Of a stretch of DNA of 64,000 nt, positions 40,915-47,947 are shown one piece after another; the stretch's first letter is position 1; each line of letters opens with the position of its first letter. The translations under genes were made by a program, and so were the position numbers. The notes beneath the pieces were generated by a model. The model was given only the letters and a program-made list of their open reading frames with translations, was not told the DNA's origin and made no database searches. The stretch is from Pseudochryseolinea flava (GTDB lineage: Bacteria; Bacteroidota; Bacteroidia; Cytophagales; Cyclobacteriaceae): assembly GCF_003286915.1 (NCBI RefSeq), contig NZ_QMFY01000002.1, positions 496,001 through 560,000 on the forward strand. The letters are read 5' to 3'.

Positions 40915-42927
40915 TTATAATGTTTTTTGAAACTTAAAATTGATAGACAAGAAAAATGACCGACCATAGGCAATCGGCGACACGCCCGAATCGCCGCTGT
41001 GAGTTGACACACTAGACGGTGAAGAATTCGAGATCGATGTGATATCGAATAAATTTCTAACACCACCAGAAAGTGTTAAGGAAGACCCGAACTCCTTTTG
41101 CATCGTGATGTCTGCCCAATGAAAACTCCCCGTTTTTGCCAACACAATGTTGCTGTCCGAGGGATCGATCACATATGCCTTCGTTACGCCTGTGTATTTG
41201 TAAAACATTGAAACCGTCAACGTCTTGACTATTGGATAGCTCACCGACGCGTTGATTTCGGGAGACCACGTGTATGTTGGAAGCGCTTCATCACTTTCAA
41301 CCAGCCTGTTGTATCTTCCGGTGTAACCAATTCCGAAACGCATCTCTATCGCGTTGCGTCTGAACGTTGATTGAAGCGTAGCACCCTTGGACTTGAAATT
41401 ATTGACATTGATGTAAGTCGTATTCCGGCTGCCCGCGAGTCTACCGTAATCAATGAGATTTTTCACATCATTATAAAAAGTCGATAGCGATGTTTTCAAG
41501 ATACCCTTCGCTATTTGGATATTGTTATTCCATGAAACATTGAAACTGTGGGACAACTCCGCTTCTAAATTCGGATTGCCCGCGATGGAATGACTTGCAT
41601 CAAAAAAATTGAAATATAATTCCCGTATCGAAGGAGCACGAAAGCCACGACCATACCCAATACGAACATCGTTCTTACCACCAAGCGAAACTTTCGCATT
41701 GAACGACGGTATGAGCGGCGGTGCATCATACACAGAATTTCTAACGATTCGTACGCCAGGGCGAAAACTCCAACGCGCTACGTTGATATCCGCCAAGAGA
41801 AAACCGGCATAGTCTGTTATTGCGTTATCACCTGTTAGAAGACGTGAACCTTTTCCAATTTCAGAATTAAAATCAAAGCCTGGTTGAAGACTCACTGATT
41901 CCCAAATCTTGATATGTAGTGACCCGCGTAGCGTTGCGCCACGGAATTCATCTTTGCTATGAAGTGTGTCCTCCGCCAATGTTTCCCGACCAGTCTTTCT
42001 GTCGACGACAATACTTTGCGTGCGTCTCTCAAAATCAGTAAATGACGCCGCTCCGTTGAATTGAATTTTTTCAGACAAATGCCCGTTAACCTGCGCCTGA
42101 TGCATCAATCGATCTGTTAGGTAGTTTTGATCAATTGCTTCAAGTCCACTGAATTCGGACGGGTTGTGAATTTTCTCATCCAAAAAATCGAAACGATAAT
42201 AAGCGTTAACTTTTTGCTTTTGTAATCCCATAACACCTCCTGCAAGCCATTGAAGTTTGGGATGCCACGCGAGTTCGCGCCCGGTAGCATCTCCCTTCCA
42301 CCCATTAAAATCGTTTCGCGTTACGTTAGCATTCGCATAGATCGATTTCAATTTATATCCGACGCTTACATTTTGATTATGTATTCCTTTCGCCAGACTA
42401 TATTCAGATCCGATGCTCTCCTCATGGATGGTCGCACTTACGTCCAGTTTGTTTTCAGGATTTTTCTTTGTGATAATGTTGATTACGCCCGCCAACGCGT
42501 CTGCGCCATAGATCACAGACATAGGGCCCTCTACAATTTCAATCCGCTCGATGGTGTTAATATTGATTTGATTGATATTGATTTCATTACCAGTTCCTTG
42601 CCTACCGATAATCGGAACGCCATCAAGCAGCACTTTTACATTTTGTCCAGGTAATCCAACCATACTTAAGTTAGAACCACCCAATGCAAGATCTTGAGAG
42701 AATCGAATGTTCAACTCAGCATTCAATACGTCTTGAAGACGAGTCGCACCTTGCGCTTTCAATCTCTCCATTGAGATTGTGCGAACGTTATAAACAGACT
42801 TCTGGACCGACTGCGGTTCCACCACGCCTGTCACCACGACCTCATCCAACGCATGGATCTTCAAGGTATCTTGTGCGTTCGTGACGATAGAAAAAATGAG
42901 AAGCAATATGCTCAACAGCTTACTCAT
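40915..42927 (-). CDS. hmuR: TonB-dependent heme receptor
   Basis: A 670-residue outer membrane receptor. Signal peptide about 1-18; plug domain about 35-150 with LDEVVVTGVVEPQSVQKSV, VLLDGVPIIGRQG and RIEIVEGPMSVIYGADALAG; 22-strand barrel to the C-terminal aromatic SINFKFQ. Its place between hmuS and hmuY in a heme transport operon supports heme as the ligand. It has no carboxypeptidase-like SusC extension. Confidence 0.93.
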   Translation of the reverse strand: MSKLLSILLLIFSIVTNAQDTLKIHALDEVVVTGVVEPQSVQKSVYNVRTISMERLKAQGATRLQDVLNAELNIRFSQDLALGGSNLSMVGLPGQNVKVLLDGVPIIGRQGTGNEININQININTIERIEIVEGPMSVIYGADALAGVINIITKKNPENKLDVSATIHEESIGSEYSLAKGIHNQNVSVGYKLKSIYANANVTRNDFNGWKGDATGRELAWHPKLQWLAGGVMGLQKQKVNAYYRFDFLDEKIHNPSEFSGLEAIDQNYLTDRLMHQAQVNGHLSEKIQFNGAASFTDFERRTQSIVVDRKTGRETLAEDTLHSKDEFRGATLRGSLHIKIWESVSLQPGFDFNSEIGKGSRLLTGDNAITDYAGFLLADINVARWSFRPGVRIVRNSVYDAPPLIPSFNAKVSLGGKNDVRIGYGRGFRAPSIRELYFNFFDASHSIAGNPNLEAELSHSFNVSWNNNIQIAKGILKTSLSTFYNDVKNLIDYGRLAGSRNTTYINVNNFKSKGATLQSTFRRNAIEMRFGIGYTGRYNRLVESDEALPTYTWSPEINASVSYPIVKTLTVSMFYKYTGVTKAYVIDPSDSNIVLAKTGSFHWADITMQKEFGSSLTLSGGVRNLFDITSISNSSPSSVSTHSGDSGVSPIAYGRSFFLSINFKFQKTL

Positions 42928-42929
42928 GC

Positions 42930-44009
42930 TTATGCAATTGGGAGTTCATCAACCAGCTTGCGCCAGCCTTCTAGTTCCGCGATCCCAGGCTTACGAAGTC
43001 CAAAGAATTGAACAATCATGTTTTTCTTTTCGTCGAAAACTTCAATACCTGTAACAACACCATCCGTTGTCGGTTTTCGCACTACCCACACCGACGCAAT
43101 CTGATCTTCGCGCAAGTGCATGTTAAAATCAGGATCAAGCACATTCAGCCATTGATCCATCACGCGAATGGTTTGAACTTTTCCTTGATGGATTTGAAGA
43201 TTCCCCCTATTGCCTGCAAAAATCATGATTGGCAATTTTGTAGCGGCGGCCTTCTCTAACAACAATCGTAACGATTCAACTTTTATCTGATGACTAAATC
43301 TGTTTTTCGCAAGAACCACGGCGTCAAGTCTATTTACCTGATGCTTTCTTAGCATCCCGAAAAACTCGTGGGTATCTTTCATCGAAGACCAGTCATTCAA
43401 GAGTTCCTGGTGATCAACTTCATCGATTGACTTTGAAAACGGTTCGTTCACCGTCGCTGTGACGATTTCCTTCGACTGATCATCGCTGGTAAAATCTGCT
43501 ACCAGCCTATCAAACGCATCTTGATTACTTCCTGCTTTGTTACCGATAGGTTGCTGCAAGAATATTTTCGTGATTGCATTTCCTGCTGCGTCGAAAAACT
43601 GCAAACTTTGCATCAAGCCATGATGCGATTGTTGACGAACAGCAAAACCAAATTTCCACGCTTTAAAAAACACACGCGATTCGATCGGACCGATTACAGT
43701 GGCCATCGCCATCGGGAGTTCTCCCATAATATCAATCTTCTGGAACGAACCCTTATGCTCCAACACACAACTTTCATTGCGCGTCAGTGACATTACACGC
43801 CCAAGTTCCGGAAGTCTAGTGAGAAGTTTTGTCCAATCACCCGAGAGTCGTGTTGTATAGTCTCCCACCGTCGTCACTAACAATTCCGCTTCACTACATC
43901 CCAGCGCATCCGCTGCATCTCTGATTCTAATACCAGGCTTTGCTTTCTGGATACCAAGCCACGCTTGCTTTAAGGTTGCCGTCGTATCGACTGATAAATT
44001 CATATTCAT
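42930..44009 (-). CDS. hmuS: hemin-degrading factor, HemS/ChuS family
   Basis: A 359-residue cytoplasmic protein made of two tandem HemS-type halves (about 10-170 and 185-359). Characteristic pieces are MSLTRNESCVLEHKGSF in the first and VMDQWLNVLDPDFNMHLRED in the second. Family members bind heme from the transporter and open it or pass it on. Its start overlaps the hmuV stop by one base (TAATG). Confidence 0.9.
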   Translation of the reverse strand: MNMNLSVDTTATLKQAWLGIQKAKPGIRIRDAADALGCSEAELLVTTVGDYTTRLSGDWTKLLTRLPELGRVMSLTRNESCVLEHKGSFQKIDIMGELPMAMATVIGPIESRVFFKAWKFGFAVRQQSHHGLMQSLQFFDAAGNAITKIFLQQPIGNKAGSNQDAFDRLVADFTSDDQSKEIVTATVNEPFSKSIDEVDHQELLNDWSSMKDTHEFFGMLRKHQVNRLDAVVLAKNRFSHQIKVESLRLLLEKAAATKLPIMIFAGNRGNLQIHQGKVQTIRVMDQWLNVLDPDFNMHLREDQIASVWVVRKPTTDGVVTGIEVFDEKKNMIVQFFGLRKPGIAELEGWRKLVDELPIA

Positions 44010-44818
44010 TATTTTGTGATTGACATGTTATACAATACATTTTCATTTGTGGGCACGACAAACGGACAATTCGTGCAGGGGTCGCGATAAATATTGACCT
44101 TACAGCAAAATGTTTCTTCAATATTTTCCTTGGTAAACACTTCTTCGACCGAACCCACATTTTGTATTCGGCCATTATTGATCATGCAGATTTCGTCTGA
44201 AAACTGCGCCGCCAAATTGAGGTCATGAACAATGGCGAGCACACCGATATTGCGCGAACAAATCCCACGGATAATGCCGAACATTTGCTGCTGCTGCGCG
44301 ATATCCATGCTGGAAGTAGGTTCATCTAGCAAGATGTAGCGCGGATAAAGCGTTTCTTCCCAAACCTGAGCGAGCGTTCGCGCCAGTTGTACACGTTGCT
44401 TTTCTCCCCCTGATAGCGTCAAATAATTTCGATCGACAAAGGCGTGCAAATTTGTTGCATCGACAACTTCTTCAATGACTGATGCATTGTGACCACTAGT
44501 GGTGTCGTGAGCATGTCTGCCAAAAGAAATAATCTCTCGCACGTTAAAAGCAAATTGTACCTGCGGATGTTGCGTCATAACGGACCTTATTCGCGACAAT
44601 TCCTTCGGACGGTATGACGAAATGTTTTTTCCATTCACACGCACATCGCCTGCATAATGCGCAATCTCGTTGCTCATAATTTTCACAAAGGAGCTTTTAC
44701 CAGCACCGTTAGGACCAACTACTGCAGTAAACTTTCCTGGCGTAATGCATAGACTGATCTCTTTCAGAATAGACCTTCCGCTTACGCTGAGCGATATGTT
44801 GTTGGCCTCGTAAGTCAC
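44009..44818 (-). CDS. hmuV: heme ABC transporter ATP-binding protein
   Basis: A 269-residue ATPase: Walker A GPNGAGKSSFVK, Q-loop MTQHPQV, signature LSGGEKQRVQL, Walker B YILLDEPTSSMD and switch His in AIVHDLNLA. It starts with GTG at 44818, overlapping the hmuU stop as GTGA. The C-terminal CKVNIYRDPCTNCPFVVP segment is cysteine-bearing, which is uncommon in HmuV. Confidence 0.94.
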   Translation of the reverse strand: MTYEANNISLSVSGRSILKEISLCITPGKFTAVVGPNGAGKSSFVKIMSNEIAHYAGDVRVNGKNISSYRPKELSRIRSVMTQHPQVQFAFNVREIISFGRHAHDTTSGHNASVIEEVVDATNLHAFVDRNYLTLSGGEKQRVQLARTLAQVWEETLYPRYILLDEPTSSMDIAQQQQMFGIIRGICSRNIGVLAIVHDLNLAAQFSDEICMINNGRIQNVGSVEEVFTKENIEETFCCKVNIYRDPCTNCPFVVPTNENVLYNMSITK

Positions 44819-45882
44819 AGTTGTAGTTTTCGTTTTGACTTTAGCAAAAGCATAATGAAGAAAGGTGAGCCGATTAAGGCAGTAACAACACCAATGGGTA
44901 ATTCAGCTGGCGCTACTACCACACGTGCGATGATATCAGCAATGATTAAGAGGAACGCGCCACCAAGGGCAGACGCCGGTAACACAAGTGTATTATCGAC
45001 ATAAAAAATTGTTCTAATCAAATGCGGAACGATCAGTCCAACAAATCCGATAATTCCCGCCAGCGAAACAGAGACTGCAACCGCTGCTGCTGCCATAAAA
45101 ATCATCAACCGTTTGGTCTGCTCAACGTGAACGCCCATATGGTATGCCTCTGCTTCGCCCAATGCAAGTACGTTGAGCGGCTTTGCGAAAAAGCATAGCC
45201 CGACCGTGGACAAAATCAACGCGGGTGCAGCTATTCGAAGTTTATCCCAAGTGGCACCACCAAGGTCTCCTAAAGTCCAAAAGAGGAACATGCTCATTTG
45301 TTGCTCATTGGCATAAAATATAGCCACGCCGATAATGGCCCCTGTCAACGCATTGACAGCAACGCCGATCAAAATCAAGGCGGCCATATTTGTGCGTCCT
45401 GAATCCATACTCAACTTGAGCACGAAAAATGTTATCGCGGACCCACCGGCGAACGCTGCTAAGGAAAGCATTACACTGTAACTCCATAACGCCACCGAGG
45501 GCAATACAGCACTTCCGAAAACGATCAACACCACGACCGCAGCAGCAGAGCCTCCCGAAACGCCAATTAGACTTGGCTCTACCAAAGGATTTCTAAACAA
45601 ACCTTGTAGAGCTGCACCACTGATACCGAGCGCAGCGCCAATGAGCAACGTCATCACTACACGCGGGAGCCGAATCGATGTCATGACGACGGTAAATGTG
45701 TCGTCGATAGTAATGTCGTTGAATAACCCGAACGACTTACATAAAATGACAACAGCATCTGAAAATGGAATACTCACTGCACCGACCGTTAAAGAAAACA
45801 GTGTTACAAACAGCAAGCTGAGTCCGAGTACGACAAGTATTGTGATAGTCTTGTATTGCCGCAAAACGATTGACGTGACCAT
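44815..45882 (-). CDS. hmuU: heme ABC transporter permease (FecCD family)
   Basis: About 355 residues from ATG 45882, which lies one base after the hmuT stop; a TTG at 45897 is the next upstream alternative. About ten membrane helices and the FecCD features RLPRVVMTLLIGAALGISGAALQG (shown here only by its span near residues 60-85) and GFVGLIVPHLIR near 280. It forms the heme importer with HmuV and HmuT. Confidence 0.93.
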   Translation of the reverse strand: MVTSIVLRQYKTITILVVLGLSLLFVTLFSLTVGAVSIPFSDAVVILCKSFGLFNDITIDDTFTVVMTSIRLPRVVMTLLIGAALGISGAALQGLFRNPLVEPSLIGVSGGSAAAVVVLIVFGSAVLPSVALWSYSVMLSLAAFAGGSAITFFVLKLSMDSGRTNMAALILIGVAVNALTGAIIGVAIFYANEQQMSMFLFWTLGDLGGATWDKLRIAAPALILSTVGLCFFAKPLNVLALGEAEAYHMGVHVEQTKRLMIFMAAAAVAVSVSLAGIIGFVGLIVPHLIRTIFYVDNTLVLPASALGGAFLLIIADIIARVVVAPAELPIGVVTALIGSPFFIMLLLKSKRKLQL

Positions 45883-45883
45883 A

Positions 45884-46726
45884 CTATTTCGCGGCAAGCT
45901 CAGGATGAAGAAGTATGATTACTTCCTTCACGGCCTCTCCAAAACGAGGCCCAAAGTTGGTTAGCTTAAGACCATCGACAGATACAATTTGCTTTTGTTT
46001 CCCTGCCTTGGTCAACGCTACTCCTTGCACTTTTAAAACGCCGTCTACGCCGCCGAGGCTTTCTAGTCCTGACGTGAGCATGAGTATATAATCTGGATTT
46101 GCTTGAATCAACGATTCCGTATTCAGAGGCTTATAACCATCAATATTCTGAATCGCATTTTTTGCACCCGTATATTTTAGTATTTCGGCAAAAGTTTCTG
46201 CACCTGCAGCGCTGATCGTAGCGGTCCCACGATTATAAACACAGAGTACTTTTGGTTCTGTGGACTTGTTCGCCAACATCTGTTGCGCTTCTTTCAAGTT
46301 AGTTTCAATCGATGCAACAAGTTTTGCTGCTTGATCATTACGATTCAACGACTTCCCGATCTGAAGAATCATTTTTTTTGTATCCTCAACATTGAGTTTT
46401 CTGTCGATCACGACGAGCGCAATGCCCGCCGTCGTGAGTTGTTGTAACACAACTTCTTCAACGTAATTTTTCTCTGCAATAACGATGGTCGGCTTAAGGC
46501 TAAGAATTCCTTCGGCATTGATTCCTGACCGATAACCTATAGACGGAAGTTTCTGAATATAATCAGGATATAAACTCGTTTTGTCGGAAGCAACGATTTT
46601 ACTGCCTTCGCCGAGCGCGCAAACAATTTCTGTAATTGCGCTTCCTGCAGTAATAATTCGGAGGGATTCCTGCGCATGGCAGAACATAGAAATCCCAAGG
46701 ATAAAAATGGTAATGAGTTTTTTCAT
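45884..46726 (-). CDS. hmuT: periplasmic heme-binding protein
   Basis: A 280-residue exported protein starting at ATG 46726; signal peptide MKKLITIFILGISMFCHAQ. TroA/BtuF-like fold with IITAGSAITEIVCALGEG at the mature N-terminus and PSIGYRSGINAEGILSLKP, a wording typical of HmuT proteins. First gene of the operon hmuT-U-V-S-R-Y and reached by the promoter at 46746-46777. Confidence 0.92.
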   Translation of the reverse strand: MKKLITIFILGISMFCHAQESLRIITAGSAITEIVCALGEGSKIVASDKTSLYPDYIQKLPSIGYRSGINAEGILSLKPTIVIAEKNYVEEVVLQQLTTAGIALVVIDRKLNVEDTKKMILQIGKSLNRNDQAAKLVASIETNLKEAQQMLANKSTEPKVLCVYNRGTATISAAGAETFAEILKYTGAKNAIQNIDGYKPLNTESLIQANPDYILMLTSGLESLGGVDGVLKVQGVALTKAGKQKQIVSVDGLKLTNFGPRFGEAVKEVIILLHPELAAK

Positions 46727-46745
46727 TTCAGTATGAATTCTGAAA

Positions 46746-46777
46746 CAAAAGTATTTCAACAGGGGCACCTGCGTCAA
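46746..46777 (-). promoter_or_regulatory. promoter of the heme uptake operon
   Basis: On the minus strand TACTTTTG (46746-46753) matches TAnnTTTG exactly and TTG (46775-46777) lies 21 bases upstream. The -7 element is flanked by TGTTGAAA and TTTCAGAA, an imperfect inverted repeat (6 of 8), which could be an iron- or heme-responsive operator; that role is inference. Confidence 0.6.
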
Positions 46778-46899: not shown

Positions 46900-47244
46900 T
46901 CAATAAGCAAACTCTTCTAAGAGCTGCAAACATTCCTGTGCAAGCCGACGACATGTCTTCGCACAACTGCGGCAATGCTCCAGGTGGCCATGTTGATCGC
47001 AATGCGCTGCGCAGGCCTCACAAATATCCAAGCATATGCTACTTAAAATTCTTGTATGGGCAACGGTGATTGTCATGAGTTTCACAGTCGTTCTACAAAT
47101 GAGTGAACACTCGCGTGCTGATGAAATACACTCCGCCAATGACTTCACGTCGTCGTCTTTCAAACAACTAACAGCACAATGCTCGCATTCAATTGCGCAC
47201 TCGTTACACGCATCAATAAAATTTATAATTGCTTCACTGTCCAT
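46900..47244 (-). CDS. cysteine-rich four-helix-bundle copper-binding protein (DUF326-like)
   Basis: A 114-residue protein without signal peptide and with 16 cysteines arranged as helix-spaced CxxC and CxxxC groups: ACNECAIECEHCAVSC at residues 12-27, then ECSLIC, then CLDICEACAAHC and CRSCAKTC. This is the pattern of Csp-type copper-storage or DUF326 proteins, which bind many Cu(I) ions within a four-helix bundle. Upstream on the same strand lie a hairpin and what reads as a TPP riboswitch; downstream is the heme operon with its own promoter. Confidence 0.88.
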   Translation of the reverse strand: MDSEAIINFIDACNECAIECEHCAVSCLKDDDVKSLAECISSARECSLICRTTVKLMTITVAHTRILSSICLDICEACAAHCDQHGHLEHCRSCAKTCRRLAQECLQLLEEFAY

Positions 47245-47293
47245 AAGTAATTTCCACCAGTGATGACATCAAACAAAATGTGACGATAAAAGT

Positions 47294-47329
47294 AGAGGCT
47301 GTCCTATGTTTAACGATAGAACAGCCTCT
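47294..47329 (-). terminator. terminator-like hairpin in the riboswitch leader
   Basis: AGAGGCTGT pairs with ACAGCCTCT (9 bp), with CTAT/ATAG continuing inside. On the minus strand it starts 2 bases after the riboswitch P1 stem and is followed by ACTTTTATC, a short T-tract. It is well placed as the expression platform. Confidence 0.65.
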
Positions 47330-47331
47330 GA

Positions 47332-47447
47332 AGTTAGCCGTGTGTTTCCTTTCGCTAGTATTACCTAGTTCAAGTAGTCAGGATGTGTTCTCAGGTAAAA
47401 TATCGAAAATTAATTCAATCTTAAACCACTCCTATTCATGACTAACT
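47332..47447 (-). ncRNA. TPP riboswitch (THI element)
   Basis: Read on the minus strand, the element shows the TPP aptamer in order: P1 AGTTAGTC/GGCTAACT; P2 TAGGA/TCCTG followed by GTG; an AT-rich P3; the invariant CTGAGA; P4 CTT/AAG; P5 CTAG/CTAG around GTAATA; and GCGA followed by GGAAA. Compared with E. coli thiM, the P4-P5 part has identical spacing (CCU-gau-CUGG-auaaug-CCAG-cgu-AGG) and the stem bases differ in compensating pairs, as do those of P2. All ligand-contacting segments (CTGAGA, TGA, GCG) are kept. P1 is offset by small internal loops. The next gene downstream is the 16-cysteine protein, not a thiamin gene. Confidence 0.85.
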
Positions 47448-47947
47448 ACACTAACAACAAAAAACGCTATGCCTATGCCGTATCAATATTCTGGCTACCC
47501 TTTCGTTGCAATTCAGCCACATAAAAACGGGGAACAAGCGTCATCAATGTTCGGCTAAATAAAAAAAGAAGGTTGAGTTCACCCAGCCATTCTTTAATGG
47601 AATGGCGCATCAACCAATACGACAATCCTTCCAGGAAAGCCGGTCGTCGTAATCGCGTTGTCGAGGGCAGTGAACTTGTGGCCTCTTCCGCGTGCTATGA
47701 CGATCCTTACGATCGGATGCATCAACGCCAGGGCACTAGCAACAAAAATAAATTGTGAACTAAAAATATTATCAGATACATCATCAATTCATCAACACAA
47801 AACTCCGGATGTAGTATTTTGCTACGTTAGGCCAAACGAATCCTTGTTTAGAATTTTTGAATGCTTCCAACTCATGTCGTATTGCATCCGTAATTTAGCA
47901 TGCATGTTGATTAACGAAAAGTAAACCACTACATTTCACTCACAGTT
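47448..47947. other. intergenic region without a supported gene
   Basis: This 500-base stretch lies between the riboswitch and the plus-strand hydrolase at 47948. Short open frames occur on both strands (such as minus-strand codons around 47590-47780), but none has a start, length or composition that supports a gene. No clear promoter match was found. Confidence 0.4.

Follow-up and report, generated by a model that had tools for sequence, protein, structure and literature searches.

A TPP-class aptamer with its own terminator and a promoter-like motif in Pseudochryseolinea flava: a possible family of free-standing TPP RNAs in Bacteroidota

The minus-strand leader that precedes a gene for a 16-cysteine protein in Pseudochryseolinea flava carries a TPP-class aptamer, followed at once by a terminator hairpin. 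This aptamer would form a separate transcription unit and not the switch of a thiamin gene, a reading to which we give a probability of roughly 60%. Its basis is found at the level of sequence, i.e., in the aptamer, the terminator, their conservation, a common upstream motif and the genomic contexts. Few gene switches have been studied as well as TPP riboswitches, which are regarded as leaders of thiamin genes. Here, «the window» means the whole stretch of DNA that was analysed (64,000 nucleotides).

Aptamer and terminator at the window locus

The Rfam model of the TPP riboswitch (RF00059) matches the leader over its full length (model positions 1-105) with 41.6 bits and an E-value of 6e-7 for the 401 bases searched. 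When the whole genome is searched, the E-value of this copy is 2.4e-6, the weakest among four TPP matches. The gathering score of RF00059 being 54.3, the window copy is below the cut-off, so that a scan of the window against Rfam at gathering scores lists nothing. The P1-P5 fold with its P2/P3 and P4/P5 arms is present, as indicated by the full-length match, and so are both core motifs, CUGAGA and GCG, which we take to be the letters of the TPP-binding pocket. A chance match was considered and is ruled out by the whole-genome E-value together with the covariation given below. The aptamer shape is thus confirmed as real by sequence comparison.

The preliminary description of this DNA, made from the letters, had placed on the minus strand a TPP aptamer (CTGAGA, GCG and P1-P5 in this order) directly followed by a terminator hairpin, and then a gene for a Csp/DUF326-like protein instead of a thiamin gene. 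These points are borne out: the RF00059 match is significant, though below the gathering score, the hairpin and the 16-Cys protein are found where they had been placed, and csp and a heme operon follow downstream. The spans of the aptamer and of the whole RNA are corrected in Table 1. The T tail behind the terminator (ACTTTTATCG) is modest and short. The window copy is itself included in the alignment of covariance model R1, and its R1 match is G000:C22:543285-543447 (window coordinates were converted from those of the contig).

A second noncoding stretch on the minus strand (47555-47770), between the TPP element and a divergent hydrolase gene, has a folding z of −1.99 (8 of 200 shuffles as good) and ends with a branched hairpin and a T run; its comparison with Rfam gave no convincing match.

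Table 1. Features of the window locus (positions in the window).
Feature	Position	Strand	Basis or remark
Promoter-like motif AGGCATAGCGTTTTTTG	47458..47474	-	sigma-54-like -24 half; -12 half non-canonical
Whole predicted RNA (P1, TPP aptamer, terminator)	47285..47447	-	model R1, 140.6 bits
TPP-type aptamer (P1-P5)	47329..47443	-	RF00059, 41.6 bits, below gathering score
Terminator hairpin, 14-pair stem, then ACTTTTATCG	47294..47329	-	stem conserved with paired changes across the group
csp, next gene: Csp3/DUF326-type protein, 16 Cys, 114 aa	46900..47244	-	CSP3 similarity, putative copper binder
TACTTTTG box before first gene of heme operon	46746..46753	-	read in sequence
Heme-type substrate-binding protein	45884..46777 (ORF as listed; likely ATG 46726)	-	Pfam Peripla_BP_2
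Heme-uptake operon, remainder	40915..45897	-	domain families
Permease of heme operon	44815..45897	-	
ATPase of heme operon	44009..44818	-	
HemS/ChuX protein of heme operon	42930..44009	-	
TonB receptor of heme operon	40915..42927	-	

The csp gene and the heme operon

The csp gene starts 41 nt past the end of the R1 match. The closest solved relative of its product is CSP3 (5fig, E 1.3e-13), while both curated cut-offs are missed, since the product scores 34.9 bits with NCBIfam TIGR04401 (cut-off 100) and 15.6 bits with Pfam DUF326 (cut-off 20.4). The protein resembles the Csp3/DUF326 copper storage proteins by its near-full-length similarity and its cysteine pattern; it differs from them by these scores and by the position of its gene ahead of a heme-uptake operon.

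The preliminary description had also named a promoter between leader and gene that would bypass the leader: no site of the sigma-70 type was found there, by a scan whose promoters do not include the Bacteroidota type. Control of csp by read-through is therefore possible. The heme operon appears to have a promoter of its own, judging from the TACTTTTG box, presumably a housekeeping -7-type box of Bacteroidota.

The association of csp with a TPP element is not conserved in the loci compared. No TPP match was obtained in 17 loci of Csp homologues (about 3 kb each, drawn from 28 retrieved, own copy excluded). A Csp-type (DUF326) gene lies beside the element L112 in one other genus, but it is divergent from it. 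In another genus, CRISPR repeats (CRISPR-DR7) are located directly upstream of a Csp homologue (L012, positions 12-1232).

Distribution of the divergent elements

Of the four TPP elements in the genome of P. flava, L001 (in front of thiC) and L003 (in front of a TonB receptor gene) are ordinary; the window locus and L002 are divergent. All seven genomes of the genus that were examined have three to four TPP matches apiece, at least one of them divergent. The divergent elements have in common a long P1 and a terminator hairpin a few bases past P1. In four of the seven genomes an element (L050-L053) occupies the same site, flanked by a YtxH/DUF4142 pair on one side and by a convergent gene on the other. 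Across 20 contexts, with ORFs read by eye, no thiamin gene was seen near a divergent element.

Stricter filters were applied in searches over 40 genomes, so that the member counts they gave are lower bounds. Model R1, built from seven sequences and run on 295 genomes of the family, has matches in 250 of them, most of those inspected being ordinary TPP elements; the divergent type is present, by inspection, in at least 16 of the 295. Named carriers, both of them environmental species, are Parachryseolinea silvisoli (G002; Cytophagales, Fulvivirgaceae in the NCBI taxonomy) and Chryseosolibacter histidini (G185); G021 stands for Chryseolinea sp. H1M3-3. A second model (R2, built from 20 sequences) brought in L251, L252, L254 and L276 from 395 genomes of the class, L253 being ambiguous. 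In one outside order 3 of 42 genomes have the element, of which one is new (L325). For the own order (390 genomes), inspection of 28 new loci, several with contexts that are not clear-cut, added L340 alone to the members; the 35 rows of this search correspond to 2 own loci, 1 known earlier, the 28 new ones and 4 without loci. L191 is a copy in a MAG of Chitinophagaceae. In the genomes searched the distribution is broad yet patchy: Chryseolinea-type Cytophagales plus scattered other Bacteroidota.

Among 16 members scored with RF00059, 11 are below the gathering score and 5 pass, which would explain that routine annotation misses members.

The core letters ACTTG..GCGNAAGGA were tried as a hallmark of the group and rejected, the pattern having matched loci across many phyla. 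Its scan over named genomes gave at least 118 stretches, 80 of which are listed as loci. The motif script, run over 69 of these 80, flagged five, all Chryseolinea-type or Cyclobacteriaceae; for the remaining 11 it did not find the start of P2, and L191 alone was viewed by eye.

Two other arrangements of TPP elements were seen in these searches: (i) adjoining pairs of matches resembling tandem riboswitches, mostly a strong one plus a weaker one (G157:C128, G010:C83, G070:C18, G117:C32, G008:C238 and G015:C6); (ii) elements upstream of a methyltransferase-like gene, behind which an AIR-synthase-like gene is located where read, by eye (L034-L037, which are strong, L119 and L131).

Structure and covariation

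With the MAFFT alignment of seven sequences, both sides change in 15 of 40 pairs (shuffle mean 6.0) and 91.8% of the cells pair (shuffle mean 87.0), a value that falls to 35-55% when the partners are slid by 1-3 columns. The alignment of 20 sequences gives 34 of 40 pairs changed on both sides, including all 10 pairs of P1 and all 12 of the terminator, and 93.6% of cells pairing (shuffle mean 73.6). As the latter alignment was fitted to the structure, 15 of 40 is the safer figure.

All 20 members have GCG, and 19 have CUGAGA, L111 having CCGGGA instead. Recurring letters of the members, AGGA/UCCU in P2 and CUU/AAG in P4, are all at paired positions, while the linker and the terminator loop have no conservation. 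The binding core and the helices being kept with compensating changes, the element does not seem to be decaying.

The upstream motif

Two sets were compared. The members are 26 elements gathered by hand, each with a TPP-like match, a hairpin resembling a terminator and no visible thi gene; some of them are near-identical to others, coming from sister genomes (L049, L051-L053, L043 and L089). The 85 ordinary elements were assigned by eye, one locus being doubled (L062 = L122); among them are L034-L037, before a methyltransferase-like ORF, and L095, which is weak and has no thi gene seen. Neither set contains L253 (GGTAC motif, terminator, no thi gene), both L091 elements, L078, L124-L130 or L132. 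L149, L156, L176 and L200 were left out of the counts, being named copies of L087, L040, L110 and L089.

Upstream of P1, members have GGYAY followed by T-rich letters. In 18 of 20 rows the first G is located 25-32 nt before the model start; the shift of the remaining two is due to the pattern used. Within a fixed window, 25 of the 26 members have a GGYAY-N4-6-TTT-like motif, compared with 1 of the 85 ordinary elements and 28 of 2000 shuffled upstream sequences; for this count L191 and L151 are circular, because they were chosen partly for the motif. TAnnTTTG has the opposite distribution (35 of 85 ordinary elements vs. 1 of 26 members). L276 is devoid of GGYAY and has a housekeeping box. Among the later loci, the motif is found in L325 and in L340, which also has a terminator, and is absent from the other 27 loci of the order-level search.

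The sigma-54 consensus is given as TGGCAC N5-7 TTGCT in the excerpt used of PMC12316311. Members resemble sigma-54 promoters by the -24 half, GG being present in 25 of 26, and by its distance to P1: in the window copy the second G, at 47472, leads to a predicted +1 at 47448, close to the position where P1 starts (47446). They differ by the -12 half, which is TTTA/TTAC-like. The canonical GC at -12 is absent from the window copy, and TTGC occurs in 1 of 20 rows (L113).

RpoN was found in 40 of 40 genomes tested. A second RpoN was considered as a required factor and rejected: full second copies were found in the own genus (7/7 genomes) and in g105 (3/3) only, and ten other member genomes have one RpoN. 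The two full RpoN genes of P. flava are G000:C33:309015-309488 (L295) and G000:C47:6062-6538 (L294); the second adjoins a response regulator (by eye), presumably of the NtrC type.

The motif scan of the own genome gave 15 matches vs. 11 for the backward control, i.e., no clear excess. In 6 of the 15 an ATG is located 41-47 nt after the motif start, a spacing that was not controlled (L279, L280, L285, L286, L289 and L292; L280 by eye). Genes behind the matches include DUF4142-like and Ku-like ones (by eye).

Genomic neighbours

The 26 copies were grouped into 20 contexts, with ORFs of at least 70 aa. Six contexts have the next ORF on the opposite strand. In the others it is on the same strand, at a distance of 144-550 nt in 5 contexts and within 66 nt in 9, csp (41 nt) among them. 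Thus 11 of the 20 contexts have no same-strand ORF start within 140 nt downstream, and in these there is no close gene to switch.

A Pfam family was assigned at E 1e-4 to 22 of 30 neighbour proteins scanned; examples are DJ-1/PfpI, YtxH, DUF4142 (two contexts), PRC-barrel, BON, Hsp20, OsmC, SDR (three contexts) and Ku, and also MFS, PAS kinase, HAD, glycosyl hydrolase and outer-membrane families. This is a plain listing of neighbours, many of which we take to be general-stress genes.

Transketolase requires TPP. A short transketolase-like ORF (118 aa, by eye) is located about 246 nt upstream of the RNA L191, in divergent orientation.

Terminator arm

In the predicted nascent RNA the first arm of the terminator is essentially free, its pairing gaining 0 to −1.9 kcal/mol in 18 of 20 members; the exceptions are L051 (−3.1) and L050 (−5.8). 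The cost of losing the terminator is 11.9-23.2 kcal/mol in 17 members, compared with 3.5-5.9 in the other three (L048, L050 and L051). The arm test is mild evidence only, because values of 0 to −5.1 kcal/mol were obtained for terminator-bearing elements outside the set, and one of −3.4 for the member L151 with other boundaries. The terminator is directly behind P1, with little sign of an antiterminator.

Discussion

Members have the P1-P5 architecture and the CUGAGA and GCG core of the TPP riboswitch (RF00059), from which they differ by a sigma-54-like motif, a terminator with no clear antiterminator and no thiamin neighbour seen. EutX and Rli55 are small RNAs that contain a riboswitch, with a cobalamin aptamer. 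Members would share with them a metabolite aptamer within a small RNA; they differ by TPP in place of cobalamin, by no known protein-binding partner and by being scattered among stress genes. In the excerpts used, three TPP riboswitches are reported in B. (PMC7366714), and riboswitches are described as almost always located on the same strand as, and upstream of, the genes they control (PMC7266159). A free-standing TPP RNA of Bacteroidota was not found in the literature searched, mostly outside subscription papers and preprints and partly as excerpts; the portions available of PMC2258182 and PMC9723704 have no such RNA.

Could the element act on the next gene in cis? The same promoter would then be followed by the TPP aptamer and by a leaky or TPP-tuned terminator setting the expression of csp here, and of Hsp20, PRC-barrel or OsmC genes elsewhere. 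The same-strand ORF within 66 nt in 9 of 20 contexts, the lack of a sigma-70-type site in the gap between leader and csp and the low cost of terminator loss in L048, L050 and L051 are consistent with this. However, 11 of 20 contexts lack such an ORF, most members have a free terminator arm, and the downstream genes have no common function, none of those seen being a thiamin gene; a cis leader is thus rather unlikely, even if a serious candidate. The proposal that thiamin status controls a metal-storage protein is not supported as the main role: the 20 contexts differ, the Csp link is not conserved, and the 17 Csp loci are devoid of a TPP match.

The scores below the Rfam cut-off, at the window and in 11 of 16 scored members, might point to an orphan riboswitch decaying after loss or rearrangement of a thi gene, as the preliminary description had suggested. 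This idea fares badly, and we regard it as highly improbable: core letters and helices are preserved with paired changes, the common upstream motif is unlike that of ordinary elements, the site and its flanking genes are the same in four of seven genus genomes, and no thiamin gene was seen in the 20 contexts. A variant aptamer with a changed ligand would agree with the non-thiamin contexts and with the helix letters AGGA/UCCU (P2) and CUU/AAG (P4) common to many members. But the differing letters are paired, and the unpaired part of the core is that of ordinary TPP elements, apart from CCGGGA in L111; such a change is improbable.

The reading as a separate transcription unit also meets points against it: (i) 9 of 20 contexts, including that of csp, have a same-strand ORF within 66 nt; (ii) the canonical -12 half (TTGC) is found in 1 of 20 rows, and L276 has no motif; (iii) the antiterminator test discriminates weakly, and three members have a small cost of terminator loss; (iv) the motif count in the own genome is 15 vs. 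11, and the T tail at the window is short. A promoter and a terminator of its own, as expected of a free-standing sRNA, are present as sequence signals only.

From these signals we infer transcription from the motif, termination, TPP binding, induction by stress and a function, in the following way. An alternative-sigma promoter, most likely of the sigma-54 type, would fire under a certain stress or nutrient condition and yield an RNA of about 120-185 nt, which would fold, bind TPP and terminate; the long P1 starts roughly where transcription from a sigma-54-like promoter would begin. Since the linker and the loops outside the aptamer are unconserved, the output of the RNA is most likely determined by TPP itself: the ligand would alter the stability or the partners of the RNA, or else the RNA would lower free TPP and thus relieve the ordinary thi riboswitches. 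At the window locus csp would be reached by read-through alone.

In its full form the proposal is more tentative, and we hold it at somewhat less than even odds: a family of Bacteroidota sRNAs, free-standing, driven by an alternative sigma factor and located among general-stress genes, which may couple thiamin diphosphate to stress by reading or soaking up TPP and leave their neighbours unswitched. If this is true, a TPP aptamer has been converted into a separate RNA, which could tie the level of a coenzyme to the stress response and would be a new use of a well-known vitamin sensor.
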